Origin: Roseomonas gilardii
GTDB lineage: Bacteria > Pseudomonadota > Alphaproteobacteria > Acetobacterales > Acetobacteraceae
Direction: 5' to 3'
DNA length: 64,000 nucleotides
Assembly (NCBI RefSeq): GCF_001941945.1
Contig: NZ_CP015583.1
Location: 1,105,001-1,169,000, forward strand
This document shows, one piece after another, positions 16,783 through 27,338 of this stretch. The notes under the pieces are model-generated. The model did not search any database and was not told where the DNA came from. It saw nothing but the letters and a program-made list of their open reading frames with translations. Numbering within the stretch: the stretch's first letter is position 1; each line of letters opens with the position of its first letter. The translations under genes were made by a program, and so were the position numbers.

Positions 16783-16966
16783 CGGCGTCCGGCGCCTCCG
16801 GCGGCGCTCTCCAGCCTGTGTTTCAGTTCCGCCGAAACCCGCATCCGCCTGCCGCGAGGCGCGTTCAGCCGGTACGGGCCCGGCCCGCTTCCCCGGAGGA
16901 GCCATGCCGGCGGCGGGAGGGCCGGGGCCCACCAGAGTGCCCGCCAGCAGGAAGGAACGGAGCGTC

Positions 16967-17701
<735 letters not shown>

Positions 17702-17799
17702 CGGGGGGCGCCGGGCGCCCCGAGGGCAGGCTCTGGGGGCAGGTTCTGGGGGCAGGGGGCGGGAGCCGGTTTGCATCCGGCTGCGCCTCGCCATTCCGG

Positions 17800-17824
17800 T
17801 GTGATGTCTTATATGATTATCGCA
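17800..17824. promoter_or_regulatory. Inverted repeat upstream of glcD, candidate operator
   Basis: TGTGAT (17800-17805) and ATCGCA (17819-17824) flank an A/T-rich core (TCTTATATGATT). The half-sites match in 5 of 6 positions as an inverted repeat. It ends 14 bp before the glcD ATG, with GGAGG in between, so it may overlap the promoter. Confidence 0.4.
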
Positions 17825-17838
17825 CCGGAGGTTCCGTC

Positions 17839-19293
17839 ATGCTCGCCCAGCTCCCGCCCAAGCCCGAGATCCTCGCACGGCAGGAAGAGATCGTGGCGGC
17901 CCTGCGCGCCATCATCCCCGCCGGCCCGCGTGGCGAGGGGGTGATCGGCGAGCCGTTGCGCCTGCGCGCCTATGAGACGGACGGGCTGTCCGCCTATCGC
18001 CAGCCGCCGCTGGCCGTGGTGCTGCCGGAAAGCACGGAGCAGGTGGCGGCGGTGCTGCGGTATTGCCACCGGAACGGCATCCGGGTGGTGCCGCGCGGCG
18101 CGGGGACCAGCCTGTCGGGCGGGGCGCTGCCCATGGCCGATTCCGTGGTGATCGGCATGATGCGGATGAACCGGGTGCTGGAGGTGGATTTCGAGGACCG
18201 GCTGGCCGTGGTGGAGGCCGGGGTGACCAATATCGGCATCACCAAGGCGGTGGAGGGGGAGGGGTTCTTCTATGCCCCGGACCCGTCCTCGCAGCTCGCC
18301 TGCATGATCGGCGGCAACGTGATGATGAATTCCGGCGGGGCGCACTGTCTGAAATACGGTGTCACCGCCAACAACCTGCTGGGCGTCACCTTCGTCACCA
18401 TCGAGGGCGAGGTGATCCGCATCGGGGGCGGGCACCTGGATGCGGCGGGCTATGACTGGCTTGGCCTGATCACCGGCTCCGAGGGGCAGCTCGGCCTCGT
18501 CACCGAGGTCACGGTGCGCATCCTGCGCGGGCCGGAGGGGGCGCGGGCCATGCTGGCGGCCTTTCGCGGCGTCGAGGTCGCGGGCCAGGCGGTGGATGCC
18601 ATCATCGCCAGCGGCGTGATCCCCGTCGCGCTGGAGTTCATGGACAAGCCCTGCATCCATGCCTGCGAGGCCTTCGCCCATGCGGGCTATCCGCTGGAGG
18701 CCGAGGCGATGCTGATCATCGAGGTCGAGGGCAGCCCGGAGGAGCAGGACATGCTGCTGGGCCGCATCAAGGACATCTGCGCCCGCTTCGACCCGATCAG
18801 CATGAAGGTCTCGCAATCGGCCGAGGAGAGCATGGCGATCTGGAAGGGCCGCAAGGGCGCCTTCGGGGCCGTCGGGCGCATCTCGCCGGATTATCTCTGC
18901 ATGGACGGCACCATCCCGACCGGGGAGCTGCCGCATGTGCTGCGCCGGATGGAGGAGATGTCGGAGGCCTGCGGGCTGAAGGTCGCCAATGTCTTCCATG
19001 CGGGCGACGGCAACCTGCACCCGCTGATCATGTTCGACGCCAACGACCCGGAGAGCTTCCGCAAGGCCGAGGCCTTCGGCGCCGATATCCTGAAGCTCTG
19101 CGTCGAGGTCGGCGGTTGCCTGACCGGCGAGCATGGCGTCGGCGTCGAGAAGCGGGACCTGATGAGCGTGCAGTTCACGCCGAGGGAGCTGGCGCAGCAA
19201 CGCCGCATCAAATCGGCCTTCGACCCGGACTGGCTGCTGAACCCGTCCAAGGTCTTCCCGCTGGAGCCGGCGCCCGGGATCGCCGCGGAGTGA
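17839..19293 (+). CDS. glcD: FAD-linked glycolate/2-hydroxyacid oxidase subunit GlcD
   Basis: FAD-binding catalytic subunit of the glycolate oxidase complex that oxidises glycolate (or D-lactate-like 2-hydroxyacids) to the 2-oxoacid. It has 484 residues. PCMH-type FAD domain: VVLPESTEQVAAVLRYC, PRGAGTSLSGGALP, DPSSQLACMIGGNVMMNSGGAHCLKYG. The C-terminal cap carries NVFHAGDGNLHPL and GGCLTGEHGVGVEKRD. The ATG at 17839 is preceded by GGAGG at about 8 bases. glcE starts 2 bases after the stop. Membrane-associated through the GlcF electron path. Confidence 0.93.
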   Translation: MLAQLPPKPEILARQEEIVAALRAIIPAGPRGEGVIGEPLRLRAYETDGLSAYRQPPLAVVLPESTEQVAAVLRYCHRNGIRVVPRGAGTSLSGGALPMADSVVIGMMRMNRVLEVDFEDRLAVVEAGVTNIGITKAVEGEGFFYAPDPSSQLACMIGGNVMMNSGGAHCLKYGVTANNLLGVTFVTIEGEVIRIGGGHLDAAGYDWLGLITGSEGQLGLVTEVTVRILRGPEGARAMLAAFRGVEVAGQAVDAIIASGVIPVALEFMDKPCIHACEAFAHAGYPLEAEAMLIIEVEGSPEEQDMLLGRIKDICARFDPISMKVSQSAEESMAIWKGRKGAFGAVGRISPDYLCMDGTIPTGELPHVLRRMEEMSEACGLKVANVFHAGDGNLHPLIMFDANDPESFRKAEAFGADILKLCVEVGGCLTGEHGVGVEKRDLMSVQFTPRELAQQRRIKSAFDPDWLLNPSKVFPLEPAPGIAAE

Positions 19294-19295
19294 CG

Positions 19296-20519
19296 ATGAG
19301 CGACATCCCGGTAGGCAATATCCCGGTGGGTGACATCCTGGCGCCGGCGGAGGAAGCCAGCGTGGCGCGCGTGGTGGCCGAGGCCCATGCGGCCGGCGAG
19401 CCGCTGCTGGTCGAGGGTGGCGGCACGAAGCGCGCCGCGCTGCGCCCGGTGCAGGCGGCGCGCAGCCTGTCGCTGCGGAACCTGTCCGGCATCACCTTCT
19501 ACCGGCCACAGGAGATGGTGATCTCCGCCCTGGCCGGCACGCCGATCCCGGAGATCGAGGCCGCGCTGGCCGAGCGGGGGCAGCAGCTCATCGCCGAGCC
19601 ACCCGACCCGCGCCCGATCTTCGGCGGCGAGGCCGCGGCGACGCTGGGCGGCACGGTGGCGGCCAACCTGTCCGGCCCGCGCCGGATCAATGGCGGCGCG
19701 ATGCGCGACCATGTGCTGGGGGTGCGCTTCGTGAACGGGGAGGGGGAGGTGCTGCGCTCCGGCGGGCGGGTGCTGAAGAACGTCACCGGGCTCGACCTGT
19801 GCAAGCTGCTCTCCGGCTCCCACGGCACGCTGGGGGTGATGACCGAGATCACGCTCAAGGTCCTGCCCGCTTCCGAGGCCACGGCGACGCTGGCGGTGCG
19901 GGTGCCGGACCTGAAGCATGGCGTGGGTGCGCTCGCCGCGGCGCTGGGCAGTCCCTTCGGCGTTTCCGCCGCCGCGATCCTGCCCGAGGGCCATGCGGCG
20001 CTGGGGCTGGACGGGGTGCTGGCGGTGGCGCGGCTGGAGGATTTCTCCGAGTCCGTGCGCTACCGTGCCGAAAGGCTGCGCGAGGCGCTGGGCCTCTACG
20101 GTGCGCTGACGCTGATCGAGGGCGAGGATTCCCGCGCCCTGTGGCGCGCGGTGCGTGATGCCGTGCCGCTCGGGGCCGCGCCGGAGGAGGCGGTCTGGCG
20201 CGTTTCCCTCCGCCCCTCCGCCGCGCCGGGCGTGGCCGAGGCGCTGCGGCGGGAGTTCGGCGCGAGGCTGCTGCTCGACTGGGGCGGCGGGCTGGTCTGG
20301 GTGGCGGGGCCGGCGAGCGAGGCCGCCCATGCGGCGGTGATGCGGGCCGCGCTGTCGGCGGGGGGCACCTTCCTGCTCTTCCGTGGGCCGGAGCCGCTGC
20401 GTGCCGCGGTGCCCGTGATCCCCGAGGAGGTGCCGGCGCTCGCCGCCCTCTCGCAACGCGTCAAGGCCGCGCTCGATCCGCGCGGCATCCTCAATCCGGG
20501 CCGCCTGCGGGCGGCCTGA
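19296..20519 (+). CDS. glcE: Glycolate oxidase FAD-binding subunit GlcE
   Basis: Second FAD-binding subunit, 407 residues, shorter than GlcD and lacking much of the cap. Motifs are LLVEGGGTKR, SGITFYRPQEMVISALAGTPI, GGEAAATLGGTVAANLSGPRR and GGRVLKNVTGLDLCKLLSGSHGTLGVMTEITLKV. The first codons encode a short repeated block (IPVGNIPVGDI). Starts 2 bases after glcD and ends 13 bases before glcF, so the three form one operon. Confidence 0.93.
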   Translation: MSDIPVGNIPVGDILAPAEEASVARVVAEAHAAGEPLLVEGGGTKRAALRPVQAARSLSLRNLSGITFYRPQEMVISALAGTPIPEIEAALAERGQQLIAEPPDPRPIFGGEAAATLGGTVAANLSGPRRINGGAMRDHVLGVRFVNGEGEVLRSGGRVLKNVTGLDLCKLLSGSHGTLGVMTEITLKVLPASEATATLAVRVPDLKHGVGALAAALGSPFGVSAAAILPEGHAALGLDGVLAVARLEDFSESVRYRAERLREALGLYGALTLIEGEDSRALWRAVRDAVPLGAAPEEAVWRVSLRPSAAPGVAEALRREFGARLLLDWGGGLVWVAGPASEAAHAAVMRAALSAGGTFLLFRGPEPLRAAVPVIPEEVPALAALSQRVKAALDPRGILNPGRLRAA

Positions 20520-20532
20520 GCACGAGACGGAC

Positions 20533-21855
20533 ATGCAGACCAGCTTCACCGCCGAGCAGCTCGAAGATCCCGACACGCGGGACTCGAACACGATCCTGCG
20601 CACCTGCGTGCATTGCGGCTTCTGCACCGCGACCTGCCCGACCTTCGTGCTGCTGGGTGACGAGCTCGACAGTCCGCGCGGCAGAATCTATCTGATCAAG
20701 GACATGCTGGAGAGCGGCAAGCCCGCCACGGAGGAGGTGGTGCGGCATGTGGACCGCTGCCTCTCCTGCCTGTCCTGCATGACCACCTGCCCCTCGGGCG
20801 TCCACTACATGCATCTGGTGGACCATGCCCGGCACTATATCGAGGAGACCTATACCCGCCCGCTGCCGGAGCGCCTGCTGCGCCGCGTGCTGGGCTGGGT
20901 GCTGCCGAGCCCGGCGCGCTTCCGGCTGGCGCTGACGGGCGCGCGGCTGGCCCGGCCCCTGCGCGGGCTGATCCCCGGGCGTTCCGTCACGTCGCAGCGG
21001 CTGCGCGCCATGCTCGACCTGGCGCCGGCCAGCCTGCCTGCCGCCAGCCCGATGCAGGCGCCGCAGGTCCACCGGGCGGAGGGCGCGCGGCGCGGGCGGG
21101 TGGCGCTGCTCACCGGCTGCGCGCAGCAGGTGATCGGACCTTCGATCAACGAGGCGACGATCCGCCTGCTGACCCGCATGGGGCTTGATGTGGTGGTGAC
21201 GAAGGAGCAGGGCTGCTGCGGCGCGCTGAACCACCACATGGGCCACCACGATCCCGCGATGGCGCAGGCACGGGCGAATATCCTGGCCTGGAGCCGCGAG
21301 ATCGAGGGGGAGGGGCTGGACGCCATCGTCATCAACACCTCCGGCTGCGGCACCACGGTCAAGGATTATGGCCACATGTTCCGCGAGGAGCGGGAAAGCG
21401 AGCGCGCCGGCAAGGTGGCCGCGCTGGCGATGGATGTCTCGGAGGTGCTGACGCGCTTCGGCTACAAGCCTTCCCGGTCCGCGCCGGGGCTGAGCGTCGC
21501 CTATCACGCCGCCTGTTCCCTGCAGCACGGGCAGAAGATCACCGCCCTGCCGAAGGACCTGCTGAAGCGCGCCGGCTTCACCGTGAAGGAGGCCGCGGAG
21601 GGGCATCTCTGCTGCGGTTCCGCCGGCACCTACAACCTGATGCAGCCGGAGATCGCGGGGCAGTTGCGGGAGCGCAAGCTGGGCAACATCGACCGCACCG
21701 GGGCGGACCTGATCGCGGCGGGCAATATCGGCTGCCTGACCCAGCTCGCGGGCGGTGCGCGCCCGACGGTGCACACGGTGGAGCTGCTGGACTGGATGGC
21801 GGGCGGGCCGGAGCCGGCAGCGGTGACGGGGCTCGCGGCGCGCCGGGCTGCCTGA
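20533..21855 (+). CDS. glcF: Glycolate oxidase iron-sulfur subunit GlcF
   Basis: Fe-S electron-transfer subunit of 440 residues. Two 4Fe-4S motifs: Cys25, 28, 31 and 35 (CVHCGFCTATCP) and Cys76, 79, 82 and 86 (CLSCLSCMTTCP). The C-terminal half has two CCG-type domains (LLTGCAQQV...GCCGALNHH and YHAACSLQH...LCCGSAGTYNL), as in heterodisulfide-reductase-like proteins. Passes electrons from GlcD/E to the membrane quinone pool. Followed 112 bp later by a TRAP transporter on the same strand. Confidence 0.95.
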   Translation: MQTSFTAEQLEDPDTRDSNTILRTCVHCGFCTATCPTFVLLGDELDSPRGRIYLIKDMLESGKPATEEVVRHVDRCLSCLSCMTTCPSGVHYMHLVDHARHYIEETYTRPLPERLLRRVLGWVLPSPARFRLALTGARLARPLRGLIPGRSVTSQRLRAMLDLAPASLPAASPMQAPQVHRAEGARRGRVALLTGCAQQVIGPSINEATIRLLTRMGLDVVVTKEQGCCGALNHHMGHHDPAMAQARANILAWSREIEGEGLDAIVINTSGCGTTVKDYGHMFREERESERAGKVAALAMDVSEVLTRFGYKPSRSAPGLSVAYHAACSLQHGQKITALPKDLLKRAGFTVKEAAEGHLCCGSAGTYNLMQPEIAGQLRERKLGNIDRTGADLIAAGNIGCLTQLAGGARPTVHTVELLDWMAGGPEPAAVTGLAARRAA

Positions 21856-21877
21856 GGGGCTGCCTGGGGGTGGGGCC

Positions 21878-21893
21878 GGAAAGGCATCTTTCC
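21878..21893 (+). terminator. Short hairpin between glcF and the TRAP genes
   Basis: GGAAAG/CTTTCC, 6-bp stem with loop GCAT. Weak; could be a partial terminator or simply chance. Transcription may read through to the TRAP genes. Confidence 0.25.
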
Positions 21894-21967
21894 AGCGTGG
21901 AAACGGCAAGCTAAAGATTCCGTAAGGCCGGCACATCCGAGATGCCGCCGATGGAAACGGGACAAGA

Positions 21968-23083
21968 ATGAATCGTCGCAAGTTTCTCGCGGGTGCCGGG
22001 CCCGCGCTGGCCCTGCCCGCCGCCGTCGCGGCCACAGGCCTGGCGAAACCGGCGATCGCGCAGACCGCCCCGGAGATCCGCTGGCGCTGCGCTTCCTCCT
22101 TCCCCAAGTCGCTGGACACCATCTACGGCGCCGCGGATTTCATGTCGAAGCGCGTGGCGGCGCTGACGGACGGGAAGTTCCGCATCACCGTCTTCGCCGC
22201 GGGCGAGATCGTCCCCGGGCTGGCGGTGGCGGATGCGGTGCAGAACAGCACCGTGGAATGCGCCCATACCGCCTCCTACTACTTCGTCGGCAAGGACCCG
22301 ACCTTCGCGCTGGATGCCACCATCCCCTTCGGCATGAACACGCGCCAGACCAATGCCTGGCTGCATGCCGGGGGCGGGCGGGAGGTGCTGCGCGAGTTCT
22401 TCGACGGCTACAACATGGTCTCCATCCCCACCGGCTCCACCGGGGCGCAGATGGGTGGCTGGTTCCGCAAGGAGATCAAGACCGTCGCGGACCTCAACGG
22501 GCTCAAGATGCGCATCGCCGGCATCGCCGGGAACATGCTGCAGAAGCTGGGCGTGGTGCCGCAGCAGATCGCGGGCGGCGACATCTATCCGGCGCTGGAG
22601 CGCGGCACGATCGACGCCGCGGAGTGGATCGGCCCCTATGACGACGAGAAGCTCGGCTTCAACCGCGTCGCGCCCTTCTACTACTATCCGGGCTTCTGGG
22701 AGGGCGGGCTGAACCTGTCCCTTTATGTCGGCAAGGCGCGCTACGAGGAACTGCCGCAGGCCTACAAGGACGCGCTGGAATCCGCCTGCCGCGACGCGAC
22801 CATGGAGACCATGGCGAAGTACGACATGCAGAACCCGCAGGCGCTGCGGCGGCTGGTGGCGGGCGGCGCGCAGCTCCGGCCCTTCCCGCGCGAGGTGATG
22901 CAGGCGGCCTACAAGTCGGCCTTCGAGCTCTATGACGAGATCTCGGCGTCCAACCCGCGCTTCAAGAAGGTCTATGATCACTTCAAGGGATTCCGCGACA
23001 CGCAGCTCCAGTGGTTCCGCGTCGCCGAGAACACCTACGACAACTTCGTCTATTCCATGCAGGCACAGGAACAGCGCCGCTGA
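21968..23083 (+). CDS. TRAP transporter substrate-binding protein (DctP family)
   Basis: Periplasmic solute-binding protein of 371 residues. Tat-like signal (MNRRKFLAGAG, cleavage near AIAQT). Mature start IRWRCASSFPKSLDTIYGAA, then GEIVPGLAVADAV, the conserved Arg-bearing LNGLKMRIAGIAGNMLQKLG and AAEWIGPYDDEKLGF. This pattern resembles the 2-oxoacid/lactate-binding branch (TakP type) rather than C4-dicarboxylate DctP. The position directly after glcDEF supports a hydroxy- or oxo-acid ligand. The ligand itself is inference. Confidence 0.9.
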   Translation: MNRRKFLAGAGPALALPAAVAATGLAKPAIAQTAPEIRWRCASSFPKSLDTIYGAADFMSKRVAALTDGKFRITVFAAGEIVPGLAVADAVQNSTVECAHTASYYFVGKDPTFALDATIPFGMNTRQTNAWLHAGGGREVLREFFDGYNMVSIPTGSTGAQMGGWFRKEIKTVADLNGLKMRIAGIAGNMLQKLGVVPQQIAGGDIYPALERGTIDAAEWIGPYDDEKLGFNRVAPFYYYPGFWEGGLNLSLYVGKARYEELPQAYKDALESACRDATMETMAKYDMQNPQALRRLVAGGAQLRPFPREVMQAAYKSAFELYDEISASNPRFKKVYDHFKGFRDTQLQWFRVAENTYDNFVYSMQAQEQRR

Positions 23084-23111
23084 TGCCGCGTGCCGCCACC
23101 CGGAGGACCGG

Positions 23112-23660
23112 ATGAAACCCCTTCTCGCCTTCTCCCGGGTGGTGGACGGCATCAGCACGTTCTGCGGCCGTGTCGCGGAGTGGCTGGTGCTGCTGGCGGC
23201 GGTGATCAGCGCCGGCAATGCGGTGGTGCGCTATCTCTTCTCCTGGTCCTCGAACGGCTGGCTGGAGGTGCAGTGGTATCTCTTCGCCGGCGTGGTGATG
23301 CTGGGCGGCGCCTATACGCTGCTGCGCAACGGCCATGTCCGCGTGGACCTGATCTACGGCAACATGTCGGAACGCGGCCGGCTGTGGACCGACGTGCTCG
23401 GCATCCTGTTCTTCCTCTTCCCGGCCATGCTGCTCCTGGTCTGGATGACCTGGCCCTTCTTCCTGGACTCGCTGAACCGCTGGGAGGGCAGCTCGAATGC
23501 GGGCGGGCTGCTGCGCTGGCCGGCGAAGCTGCTGTTGCCGGTGGGATTCCTGCTGGTCTTCCTCCAGGGGGCCTCCGAGCTGATCAAGCGCATCGCCCTG
23601 CTGCGCGGCCTCCGGCCGGAGGGCGAGGTCGCCCTGGCCTACGAGAAGCCCATGCAATGA
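23112..23660 (+). CDS. TRAP transporter small permease (DctQ family)
   Basis: Inner-membrane subunit of 182 residues with four hydrophobic segments. The conserved region SNGWLEVQWYLFAGVVMLGGAYTLLRNGHVRVDL is typical of DctQ. Start ATG at 23112 is preceded by GGAGGACCGG. It lies 28 bp after the binding protein and 31 bp before the large permease. Confidence 0.9.
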   Translation: MKPLLAFSRVVDGISTFCGRVAEWLVLLAAVISAGNAVVRYLFSWSSNGWLEVQWYLFAGVVMLGGAYTLLRNGHVRVDLIYGNMSERGRLWTDVLGILFFLFPAMLLLVWMTWPFFLDSLNRWEGSSNAGGLLRWPAKLLLPVGFLLVFLQGASELIKRIALLRGLRPEGEVALAYEKPMQ

Positions 23661-23691
23661 GCCGCCGCCCAAGGAACGGATCCCCCATCGC

Positions 23692-25104
23692 ATGAATGTC
23701 GAGCTCATGCCGCCCCTGATGTTCGGCGGCCTCGTGATCTTCCTGCTCTTCGGCTTCCCGGTGGCCTTCAGCCTGGCGGCGGTCGGCCTGTTCTTCGGCT
23801 TCCTGTCGGTGGAACTGGGCTATTTCGCCTTCGGCTTCCTGGCCAACCTGCCGCTGCGCGTCTTCGGCGTGCTGTCGAACGAGCTGCTGCTGGCCATTCC
23901 CTTCTTCACCCTGATGGGCGCGATCCTGGAGCGCTGCGGGCTGGCCGAGGACCTGCTGGAAGGCACCGGACAGCTCTTCGGCAAGGTGCCGGGCGGCCTC
24001 GCCATCGCGGTGGTGCTGGTGGGCGCGGTGCTGGGCGCCATCACCGGCACGGTCGCCGCCTCGGTGATCGCGATGGGCATGATCTCGCTGCCGATCATGC
24101 TGCGCTACGGGTACGACCAGAAGATCGCGACCGGCGTCATCGCCGCCTCGGGCACCATCGCGCAACTCATCCCGCCCTCGCTGGTGCTGATCATCCTGGG
24201 CGACCAGCTCGGCCGCTCGGTGGGCGACATGTATGCCGGGGCCATCGGCCCCTCCATGCTGCAGGTGCTGCTGTTCCTGCTCTTCATCGGGGCGGTGGCG
24301 ATCTTCGCCCCGCACAAGGTGCCGCCGCTGCCGCCCGAGGCCCGGCAGCGCCACGGCTGGGCCCTGTACTGGAAGGTGCTGCGGGGGATGCTGCCCTCCC
24401 TGGTGCTGATGTTCCTGGTGCTGGGCACGATCTTCCTGGGCCTCGCGACGCCGACCGAGGCGGGGGCGATGGGCGCGATGGGCGCCATCTTCCTGGCGGT
24501 GATCAACGGCCGCTTCACCTATGCGCTGCTGCGGGAGGCCATGGCCAACACCGCGCGCATCACCGCCATGGTGGTCTTCCTGCTGCTCGGCGCCACCGTC
24601 TTCTCGCTGGTCTTCCAGGGCGTCGATGGCGGCCTCTGGATCGAGCACCTGCTGTCCCACCTGCCGGGCGGGCAGACGGGCTTCCTGCTCTTCACCAATG
24701 TCTTCATCTTCTTCCTGGCCTTCTTCCTCGATTTCTTCGAGATCGCCTTCATCGTCGTGCCGCTGCTGGCGCCGGTGGCGGCCAAGCTGAACATCGACCT
24801 CGTCTGGTTCGGCGTGCTGCTCTGCGTGAACCTGCAGACCAGCTTCATGCACCCGCCCTTCGGCTTCGCGCTCTTCTACCTGCGCTCCGTCGCGCCGCCG
24901 GAGGTGCGGACCAGCCAGATCTACTGGGGGGCCATCCCCTGGGTCTGCCTCCAGATCATCCTGGTGGGCATCGTGATCTTCTGGCCGGAGAGCGTGACCT
25001 ACTGGCTGGATTCCGGCACCAAGGTGAACCCGGCCTCGGTCGTCATCGACGTGCCGACCCCGGGCATGGGGGAGGACGAGCCGCCGCCGGTGATCTTCAA
25101 GTAG
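23692..25104 (+). CDS. TRAP transporter large permease (DctM family)
   Basis: Main membrane subunit of a sodium-driven TRAP importer, 470 residues, about 12 or more hydrophobic segments. Family motifs are FALVIFLLFGFPVAFSLA-like N-terminus (GGLVIFLLFGFPVAFSL), VAVVLVGAVLGAITGTVAAS, ASGTIAQLIPPSLVLIILGD and a late QTSFMHPPFGFALFYLRSVAP. Longer than the common 425-430 residues; members of this longer subset are often paired with the TakP-like binding proteins. Last gene of the TRAP unit. Confidence 0.92.
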   Translation: MNVELMPPLMFGGLVIFLLFGFPVAFSLAAVGLFFGFLSVELGYFAFGFLANLPLRVFGVLSNELLLAIPFFTLMGAILERCGLAEDLLEGTGQLFGKVPGGLAIAVVLVGAVLGAITGTVAASVIAMGMISLPIMLRYGYDQKIATGVIAASGTIAQLIPPSLVLIILGDQLGRSVGDMYAGAIGPSMLQVLLFLLFIGAVAIFAPHKVPPLPPEARQRHGWALYWKVLRGMLPSLVLMFLVLGTIFLGLATPTEAGAMGAMGAIFLAVINGRFTYALLREAMANTARITAMVVFLLLGATVFSLVFQGVDGGLWIEHLLSHLPGGQTGFLLFTNVFIFFLAFFLDFFEIAFIVVPLLAPVAAKLNIDLVWFGVLLCVNLQTSFMHPPFGFALFYLRSVAPPEVRTSQIYWGAIPWVCLQIILVGIVIFWPESVTYWLDSGTKVNPASVVIDVPTPGMGEDEPPPVIFK

Positions 25105-25316: not shown

Positions 25317-27338
25317 ATGGCCAAGCCCCATCGCAAGCCGTTGCGCCAGCAGGTGATCGTGCTCACCGGCGCCACCTCCGGCATCGGCCTCGCCACCGCG
25401 CGGCTGGCGGCGGAGCGGGGTGCCTCGCTGGTCCTGGCCGCCCGCAACGAGGATGCCCTGCGTTCCCTGCGGGACGAGCTGCGCGCCCGGGGCGGGCGCA
25501 CGGAATACGTGGTGGCCGATGTCGCCGATGCGGAGGCGGTGGAGAAGGTCGCGCAGAAGGCCATCGACAGCTTCGGCGGCTTCGACAGCTGGGTGAACAA
25601 TGCCGGCGCGGCCATCTATGGCCGGATCGAGGACACGCCGCTGGAGGACCAGAGGCGCCTGTTCGACGTCAACTACTGGGGCGTCGTGAACGGCACCCAG
25701 GTGGCAGCGAAGCACCTGAAGCAGCGCGGCGGCACCATCGTCAATGTCGGCTCCGTCCTGTCCGACCGGGCGATGGAGCTGCAGGGCGTCTATTCCGCCT
25801 CCAAGCACGCGGTGAAGGGCATCACCGATGCCTTCCGCATGGAGTTCGAGGAGGCCGGCTACCCGATCTCCGTCACGCTGGTGAAGCCCAGCTCGGTGGA
25901 CACGCTGTTCCCGGAGCATGCGCGCAACGTGACGGACAGCGCCGGGCTGAAGCTGCCGGCGCCCGTCTATCATCCGCGTCTGGTGGCCAAGGCGATCCTG
26001 CATGCCTGCGAACACGCGCCCCGGACCCTGGTGGTGGGCATGGGCGGCTATGCCATCGCCCTGCTGGGCAACCACGCCCCGCGCCTGACCGACCGCTTCA
26101 TGGAAGCCTTTGGGCGCCGCAGCCAGACGCGCCAGAGCCCGGGCCGCAAGGACCGCCACGACAACCTCTACGAGCCGCGGGCCGACCTCGCCGAGACGGG
26201 TGCGATCAAGGACCAGCCGGCCCCGCGCCGGAGTTCGGTGCTGCTGGAGGCGCAGATGAACCCGCTCGGCACCACCGGGGTGCTGATCGGCCTGGGCGTG
26301 CTGGCGGCCGGCGTTGCGGTGGGCGTCCATTACAGCCGCAAGTCCCGCGACCGCGCCCTGCTGCGTGAGGCCGAGGAGGCGATGCGCCGGGGCCGCTGGA
26401 GCTTGTCCCGCCTGGGAAGCGGGAAGGGTGACGAATGGGCCGGCCTGTCCCGCAAGGCGCGCCGCCGGGCGGAGCAACTGGCACGCGAGGCGGAGAGCAG
26501 GGCCTCCCGCGGCGGCAGCCTGCTGGGCGGGCTGTTCGGGCGGGCACGGCACGATGCCCGCGATCTGGCGGAGGACACCTCCTCCCGTGCCCATTCCCTG
26601 TGGGGGCGCTGGCGCGGCCAGGCGGACGATTTCGCCGAGGAGTCGCAGGATCGGGTGCAGTCCTGGCGCGGCAGCGCGATGGGGCTGATCGGACAGGCGC
26701 GTGGCCGGGCCGGGGATCTGGCCGAGGACGCGCAGGATCGGGCCGACCGCTACCGCGATGAGGCACGGTCCTTCCTGGGGCGGGTCCGGGGCCGCGCGGA
26801 GGATGCGGCGGAGACGGCCTATGACACCGCCGGGGAGTATCGGGACAGCGCCCGTTCCTTCCTGGGCCGGGCGCGTGGCCGGGCGGAGGACGTGGCCGAT
26901 ACGGCGCAGGATCGCGCCAGCGCCCTGAGGGGTGGCGCCATGTCCCTGCTGGGCCGGGGACAGGACCGGGTGGAGGGCTTCGCCGGGGATGTCCGGGAGC
27001 GCGTGGAGCACATGCGTGACGAGGCCCAGGGGAAGGCCCAGGGCCTGTTGCGTGGTGGGCGCCGCAAGGCCCGGCGTCGGGCGCGGCGTGGCGAAAGCGT
27101 CCTGGTCTCCTTTCTCTGCTCGCTGCGACAGGGCCTGGACGGGGTGGTGGACCGGCTCTCGGGCCGTCCTTCGCGCCGTTCCGCGGGCTGGATGGATCGG
27201 GCCTCGGAGCTTGGGGAGACGCTGCGCGACACCGCCTCCCATGCCGGGCATGACGCGGCCGAGCTCGCGGGGCGTGCCCGCAAGCGCGGCGATGCCCTGG
27301 TGCGCGACCTGCGGCGCGAGATCCGGCGCTGGGCCTGA
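25317..27338 (+). CDS. Short-chain dehydrogenase fused to membrane segment and helical repeat tail
   Basis: 673 residues in three parts. Residues 10-260 are a classical SDR with cofactor motif TGATSGIG (17-24), NNAG (94-97), Ser147 and YSASK (159-163); it is probably a dehydrogenase of unknown substrate. Residues about 318-338 form one hydrophobic segment (TTGVLIGLGVLAAGVAVGVHY). Residues about 405-580 hold about six copies of a 25-31 residue repeat of the form G(R/Q)ARGRAEDxAEDAQDRxxxYRDxARSFLG, strongly charged, amphipathic and helical, like LEA, apolipoprotein or YtxH-type stress proteins. Further Arg-rich helices finish the protein. The frame is continuous with no stop between parts. Start ATG 25317 follows a GGGAG-type RBS. 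The tail is the unusual feature; the SDR call is firm. Confidence 0.85.
   Translation: MAKPHRKPLRQQVIVLTGATSGIGLATARLAAERGASLVLAARNEDALRSLRDELRARGGRTEYVVADVADAEAVEKVAQKAIDSFGGFDSWVNNAGAAIYGRIEDTPLEDQRRLFDVNYWGVVNGTQVAAKHLKQRGGTIVNVGSVLSDRAMELQGVYSASKHAVKGITDAFRMEFEEAGYPISVTLVKPSSVDTLFPEHARNVTDSAGLKLPAPVYHPRLVAKAILHACEHAPRTLVVGMGGYAIALLGNHAPRLTDRFMEAFGRRSQTRQSPGRKDRHDNLYEPRADLAETGAIKDQPAPRRSSVLLEAQMNPLGTTGVLIGLGVLAAGVAVGVHYSRKSRDRALLREAEEAMRRGRWSLSRLGSGKGDEWAGLSRKARRRAEQLAREAESRASRGGSLLGGLFGRARHDARDLAEDTSSRAHSLWGRWRGQADDFAEESQDRVQSWRGSAMGLIGQARGRAGDLAEDAQDRADRYRDEARSFLGRVRGRAEDAAETAYDTAGEYRDSARSFLGRARGRAEDVADTAQDRASALRGGAMSLLGRGQDRVEGFAGDVRERVEHMRDEAQGKAQGLLRGGRRKARRRARRGESVLVSFLCSLRQGLDGVVDRLSGRPSRRSAGWMDRASELGETLRDTASHAGHDAAELAGRARKRGDALVRDLRREIRRWA

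Follow-up and report, generated by a model that had tools for sequence, protein, structure and literature searches.

A putatively membrane-bound SDR of Roseomonas gilardii with a repeat-built amphipathic tail that may lie along the membrane

What use can an SDR enzyme make of a 330-residue, charged and repetitive tail placed behind a hydrophobic segment? The question is raised by a gene of Roseomonas gilardii found in the 64,000-nucleotide stretch of DNA analysed here (contig NZ_CP015583.1, positions 1,105,001 to 1,169,000 of the forward strand), which we call the window and from whose first letter coordinates are counted. In line with the initial annotation, which proved largely right and was confirmed in part, the gene is a single coding sequence (25317..27338, + strand) running uninterrupted from the ATG at 25317 to the stop at 27338, over 673 codons plus the stop, and it encodes an SDR, a hydrophobic segment and a repeat tail. 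It belongs to the PRK07109 subfamily: residues 6-331 (25332..26309, +) match NF005495 with 359.6 bits, over the curated cut-off of 264, the match reaching into the hydrophobic segment, and Pfam adh_short matches residues 12-197 (E 1.6e-46). The catalytic motifs already recognised, TGATSGIG (residues 17-24) and YSASK (residues 159-163), are present, and T17, G18, G22, G24, Y159 and K163 are invariant in an alignment of 16 sequences. The Gly/Ala-rich hydrophobic segment, residues 319-337 (26271..26327, +), has a mean Kyte-Doolittle hydropathy of 2.05 and is, as announced, single: scanning after residue 250 with a 19-residue hydropathy window and a cut of 1.3, no other stretch passes. The tail itself, residues 344-673 (26346..27335, +), was characterised through periodicity, charge layout, AF2 models and dN/dS; its 330 residues are 38% charged (net +17), with 66 Arg and 1 Pro.

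Fusions of this kind may be artefacts. The fused frame was found, however, in all 15 genomes of the genus analysed, encoding proteins of 520 to 741 residues, and a frameshift, two separate genes or an assembly error are therefore ruled out; the two separate genes in relatives that would have spoken for such an error did not appear. Homologues lacking the tail, the other observation named beforehand as adverse, are indeed common, but the tail matches no unrelated known domain in Pfam. We also considered an internal start at Met314, which would give a stand-alone YtxH-like product. The GGAGG ahead of this codon belongs to the codons for L-E-A, and some relatives have GGAAG in its place; the idea was dropped for these reasons. 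Rfam gave no match at gathering score anywhere in the window.

The window tail repeats with a unit of 29 residues. Its self-identity at lag 29 is 0.29, compared with at most 0.19 in shuffles at any tested lag (n = 500), and its helical-period power reaches 41.2, against a maximum of 9.8 in 500 shuffles. Units were scored from residues 409, 460, 489 and 518, the last three being those initially placed at 459, 488 and 517. When compared with one another, the three clean 29-mers, residues 460-488 (26694..26780), 489-517 (26781..26867) and 518-546 (26868..26954, all +), are 59-66% identical in amino acids and 61-68% in DNA, and a degenerate unit, residues 409-437 (26541..26627, +), has 28-38% amino acid identity to them. 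A 29-residue repeat beyond chance is thus present, but the six copies first counted come down to three clean units and one degenerate unit among those scored. Nor does the window gene bear marks of the recent DNA expansion that had been suggested, given this level of DNA identity and the fact that Tandem Repeats Finder reports no array in the gene at score 30. Tandem DNA arrays do exist in relatives, where the G012 and G002 rows reach scores of 237 and 488. Two further loci (L020 and L021, in G010 and G001) carry five near-identical hendecads of EARRGIGSLG type following the membrane segment, and the array found in L020 has a period of 33, 5.1 copies and 75% match. Searches of 60 relatives with two tail queries revealed no stand-alone copy of the repeat at E<=1e-4, every match falling inside an SDR-tail gene.

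In the majority of orthologues, the tail is built on another unit. Eleven of the 15 have an 11-residue repeat (lag-11 identity 0.26-0.37) and a hydrophobicity spectrum whose peak, 3.665-3.670 residues per turn, corresponds to 11/3, the period of a 3-11 helix; the window gene and its orthologues in G011 and G003, hereafter the window trio, have the 29-residue unit and peak at 3.630-3.645. The peak lies above all 500 own-composition shuffles in 15 of 15 orthologues, with a scan step (0.02 for shuffles, 0.005 for real tails) that slightly favours the real tails. The remaining tail, that of G013, has a period of 3.615, near 29/8, and although a 29-mer tail, it matches the hendecad tail of G012 with an E value of 3e-16, versus 7e-5 for the window tail; by this likeness, G013 links the two tail forms. 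Both tail length and repeat number differ between relatives, a variation that the initial annotation had brought up. Counted from a fixed start, eight of the 11 hendecad tails have lengths that are multiples of 11 (209, 220, 231, 231, 242, 253, 286 and 330), and the other three, which come from one subclade, measure 178, 201 and 201. Such multiples are consistent with a phase constraint without proving it, because slippage of 33-base units could produce them without selection. When the tails of the window trio are aligned in their three pairs, all eight gaps are of 4 residues. A profile of the 11 hendecad tails, in which one of two phases was taken for the ambiguous G010 and G001, gives an apolar strip k, d, h, a composed of Leu/Ala, Ala, Gly/Ala and Tyr/Ala/Phe (d is Ala in 71%, h Gly/Ala in 74%), with Arg at e (61%) and g (46%) and Asp-rich positions b and f.

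In class A amphipathic helices, a pattern known from apolipoproteins, positive residues stand beside the apolar face and negative ones opposite. The window tail has this layout: its apolar face is flanked by Arg, with Asp/Glu on the far side, and the charge of the flanks minus that of the far side is 0.41, against 0.02 +/- 0.09 in shuffles (maximum 0.23, n = 100). Values for the window trio are 0.41, 0.47 and 0.42, with shuffle maxima of 0.23, 0.21 and 0.26. Over the genus the layout exceeds all 100 shuffles in eight of 15 orthologues, G005 and G004 only just, and stays within them in the other seven, G010 and G001 having nothing of it (0.07 and 0.05). The apolipoprotein or YtxH character first attributed to the tail is supported by profile searches. 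Residues 314-673 match Pfam Apolipoprotein (PF01442) with E 1.7e-8 (34.9 bits, below the cut-off of 90) and YtxH (PF12732) with E 7.4e-6 (26.7 bits, below the cut-off of 37.5). An artefact of composition can be set aside for these two sub-threshold matches, since neither was obtained with any of eight composition shuffles (of 10 made), which covered residues 335-673. The same residues 314-673 gave no perilipin family match in Pfam, and a search of PDB sequences with residues 335-673 gave apolipoprotein A-IV as the top match, which is not significant (E 0.13). Among the orthologues, tails have a mean hydrophobic moment of 0.30-0.35, a hydrophobic fraction of 0.32-0.36, aromatic and charged fractions of 0.05-0.12 and 0.36-0.45, and 10-17% Gly. 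These values, computed with our own script and not with Heliquest, are near those of ApoA-I and CTP:phosphocholine cytidylyltransferase (CCT-alpha) in Table 1 of PMC5889406, the moment being lower than the 0.39 (ApoA-I) and 0.48 (CCT-alpha) given there.

Structure prediction, an AlphaFold check having been proposed at the outset, returned a tail that is helical for the most part, with low confidence. In the AF2 model of the window protein (16 sequences), pLDDT is low over the tail, with block means of 27-60; for G012 (11 sequences), helices cover residues 373-534 and 538-671, with block means of 50-76 over residues 421-670 and lower values ahead of these. Shallow alignments leave the SDR part poorly modelled, and what the models show is helix propensity and nothing beyond. 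As to topology, the N terminus of the window protein leads straight into the Rossmann motif. In 15 of 15 orthologues, the 15 residues after the segment have a higher net charge than the 15 before it, which argues for a tail on the cytoplasmic side; a segment that fully spans the membrane would place the tail in the periplasm.

The explanation that we place ahead of its rivals, and to which we give about an even chance, is that of a membrane-bound SDR of PRK07109 type whose tail is an amphipathic helix lying on the membrane. The C-terminal hydrophobic segment (319-337) would hold the SDR at the inner membrane, and the tail would fold upon meeting lipid into a helix of 3-11 type, extending along the membrane surface as a multivalent tether and possibly sensing lipid packing, as does the 11-mer helix of CCT-alpha. 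The reductase so tethered would stay close to substrates within the membrane, either hydrophobic ones or carbonyls generated by stress, with the number of repeats tuning the strength of binding. In favour of this explanation are the helical period, the changes of length by whole repeats, the class A layout of the window tail, the tail composition close to that of ApoA-I and CCT-alpha, the Apolipoprotein match, the purifying selection described below and the PLD-VTT/EEP neighbours of eight genus members; the seven orthologues and the g54 tails without that layout, the low AF2 confidence and the lack of the PLD-VTT/EEP pair near the window gene weigh against it.

The chief rival, which we regard as possible though rather unlikely, takes the tail for a hendecad coiled-coil rod that makes the SDR oligomerise or spaces it from the membrane. 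Apolar a, d and h (and k) positions, with small residues at d and h, match the hendecad core rule as set out in the part of PMC9858780 relied on here (hydrophobic a, d and h, plus a small-core requirement); the profile that shows this core covers the 11 hendecad orthologues. The same consensus (a Tyr/Ala/Phe, d Ala, h Gly/Ala) counts against the lipid-lying helix inasmuch as it suits a coiled coil too, and the Gly content of 10-17% also tells against it by lowering helix stability. The coiled coil has in addition the long unbroken helices of the AF2 models and weak NCBIfam matches to Wag31 (E 0.0054) and Scy (E 0.014). However, Arg flanks the apolar strip on both sides, at e and at g, so that a parallel homodimer would tend to repel, and the window tail, with its class A arrangement of charges, suits a lipid surface better.

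Alternatively, the tail may be disordered, an LEA-like or spacer element that shields proteins or membranes in drying or solvent stress and is uncoupled from catalysis. A charged 11-mer repeat, a low mean hydrophobicity and the Gly content would fit this scheme, and so would a stress connection of the subfamily. B. subtilis has a member over the NF005495 cut-off, which we take to be YxnA. The yxnA gene is placed among the SigB-regulon genes in PMC7824861, and PMC3882111, citing another paper, says that YxnA is required under severe ethanol stress; through B. subtilis YxnA, an indirect link to a stress role may thus be drawn for the subfamily. Against this, no LEA family was matched at E<=10 by the window or the G012 tail (HMMER filters drop many weak matches), which leaves the LEA membership entertained at first without backing, and the apolar strip stays in period along as many as 30 hendecads. 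We consider the LEA-like scheme improbable.

We think it very improbable that the tail, either DUF883/YqjD-like or simply Arg-rich, serves to bind nucleic acid or ribosomes next to the membrane. YqjD-type proteins bind ribosomes, the window tail contains 66 Arg, and the segment plus tail of G012 scores 31.9 bits with DUF883 (PF05957), over the cut-off of 25.4. The window tail, however, stays under this cut-off with 16.6 bits, its Arg residues are balanced by Asp/Glu in a pattern, and the match to the DUF883 model is spread over nine stretches of a repetitive sequence.

A tail that changes rapidly could also be under little constraint. Six pairs, half of them inside the window trio and half between hendecad relatives, gave a dN/dS of 0.13-0.27 for the tail versus 0.06-0.12 for the SDR, and over residues 346-673 the three window-trio pairs gave 0.18-0.25. 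Compared with the SDR, the tail also has higher synonymous differences, so that misalignment of repeats may colour the tail values. The tail evolves faster than the SDR, yet it is constrained as a protein in this frame, by purifying selection. A drifting repeat without a role, compatible with the fast changes of tail length and with the absence of the tail from most relatives fetched, is accordingly disfavoured by the low dN/dS and by the presence of the tail in all 15 genomes of the genus, and seems to us hardly credible.

Beyond the genus, tail-less members are the rule in this subfamily: in most of those fetched, the protein stops no more than a few dozen residues past the segment. No hendecad tail was seen by eye at 59 loci (60 frames), namely those passing the score filter out of at least 80; one, L142, ends at a contig end. 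In another reading of 50 loci, also by eye, two carry hendecad tails and two others a C-terminal domain of a different kind, this being a set in which long open frames partly guided the choice of 20, and not a survey. At L082 and L092 (G112 and G163), a domain of about 90 residues follows the membrane segment and has the look of an ABM-type monooxygenase by eye. Basic, helix-like tails of about 55 residues follow the membrane segment at L117, L138 and L243 (Phenylobacterium and one genome of family f63) and were left out of the hendecad-tail counts. The window genome itself encodes a tail-less SDR of the subfamily (L068, G000:C1:2495223-2496185), which scores 451 bits where the tailed protein scores 362 in the same search. 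The SDR part finds 48 matching plasmid records, none of the best 15 of these 48 covering 80% of the query, and the G012 tail has no match among plasmid records.

Other charged tails of helix-like appearance occur on SDRs of two more lineages. In genus g54, three of 21 genomes have a subfamily SDR with a tail of different sequence, composed by eye of three or four 11-mers; its charge layout is opposite in direction, none of the three being class A. In genera g137 and g298 of f63, the SDR and its segment are followed by a charged stretch and a second hydrophobic segment, and one of three g137 tails tested has a charge layout beyond shuffles, barely. The second segment was computed in L216, L217, L228, L230 and L234 and seen by eye in L238 and L245; L229 is cut off by the contig end. 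Because this segment closes the tail, the f63 tail may be held by the membrane at both ends. We built a tree from 118 of 171 SDR cores, after dropping those with a score below 560, those with fewer than 255 aligned residues and duplicates (90 short, 15 from g1, the genus of the window, 6 g137, 3 g54, 2 g298 and 2 ABM-like, L229 being entered as tailed though its contig ends within the tail). It requires four changes between tailed and untailed states, and g1, g54 and g137 plus g298 stand in three places. A constraint that unites g1 with g54 is rejected (p 6e-37), but one that makes g1 a single clade is accepted (p 0.48). The plain reading of the tree would be that tails were gained repeatedly on this subfamily, with repeated loss as a possible alternative.

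The neighbourhood of the gene offers little help in the window. A TRAP transporter lies on one side and CxxCxxCC, cupin, YgjP and FUSC genes on the other, an order common only to G011 and G003 among 15 genomes compared; no operon partner was found, the neighbours being shared by the two nearest relatives only. Since the homologue of the window gene 16904-17701 adjoins the SDR gene in G013 and G034, the window genes 17629-25104 may have been inserted in the window lineage. In eight of the 15 genus members, a PLD-VTT gene and a gene of the endonuclease/exonuclease/phosphatase family (EEP) precede the SDR-tail gene on the same strand, with a gap between EEP and SDR of 85-158 bases in the four genomes where the end of the EEP gene was read, and, from coordinates, of about 60 in G005 and 315 in G012. 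At L041:4758-7682 and its equivalents in seven relatives, the PLD-VTT fusion adjoins the EEP gene upstream of the SDR-tail gene. The pair resembles clsB-ybhP of cardiolipin synthesis in E. coli, and by that analogy the neighbours might tie the SDR-tail gene to phospholipid metabolism, a lead only. In the window genome, the pair is about 407 kb from the SDR-tail gene; it was not found within about 8 kb of the gene in this genome, G011, G003, G013, G001, G009 and G010, and also at the scanned g54 (flanks of about 6-8 kb) and f63 (about 1.5 kb) loci. As to a setting of TAG droplets, a search for WS/DGAT, in which no control matched, gave no match in the window genome.

How does the protein compare with known systems? 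PRK07109/NF005495 SDRs have the same core and catalytic motifs and, in most members fetched, the C-terminal hydrophobic segment, but they end soon after it, whereas the window protein runs 330 residues further. Apolipoproteins A-I, A-IV and E (PF01442) resemble the tail in their class A layout and helical repeat, at a profile match that is sub-threshold. They are punctuated by Pro into 22-mers, however, and this kinked arrangement is not that of the window tail, with its 1 Pro in 330 residues and a best lag of 29; moreover, an enzyme part and a membrane segment are joined to the window tail. YtxH and DUF883 proteins, to which the likeness is a sub-threshold YtxH match in the window and a DUF883 match over cut-off in G012, are small and stand alone, in contrast to a 330-residue tail on an enzyme. 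In the open-licence literature we recognised no paper describing the SDR-tail fusion; the authors of the core-rule paper are said to have surveyed hendecad families, and that work may include it.

Long lipid-binding 11-mer helices are, according to the part of PMC5889406 used here, best known in eukaryotic perilipins, synucleins and apolipoproteins. Eleven of the 15 orthologues have the 11-residue repeat and 3-11 geometry of perilipin 4, alpha-synuclein and CCT-alpha, the last being, like the SDR-tail protein, an enzyme with an 11-mer helix (PMC5889406). The orthologue tails are more charged and more aromatic than Plin4 in the same source, and the window differs from all these proteins in its 29-residue unit and in the membrane segment preceding the tail. 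A bacterial protein called apolipoprotein-like does exist, MLDS of Rhodococcus lipid droplets (PMC5676593), though it is a lipid-droplet protein and is not described as an SDR in the portion of that paper drawn on here. A bolder form of the lipid-lying helix would make the SDR-tail protein a bacterial counterpart of CCT-alpha or perilipin, with a length-tunable 3-11 helix that reads or coats lipid, so that the state of the membrane controls or positions the reductase, and with tails gained separately in three lineages of one class (g1; g54; g137/g298 of f63). We hold this bolder form to be doubtful.

With tails that range from about 16 hendecads up to 30, and with the 29-mer form besides, on one enzyme in one bacterial genus, nature provides a series graded in length, in which one could measure how repeat number relates to lipid affinity and to the placement of the enzyme. 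If the separate gains hold, the repeated fusion of a helical tail to one subfamily of membrane SDRs would point to a job that tail and enzyme share.
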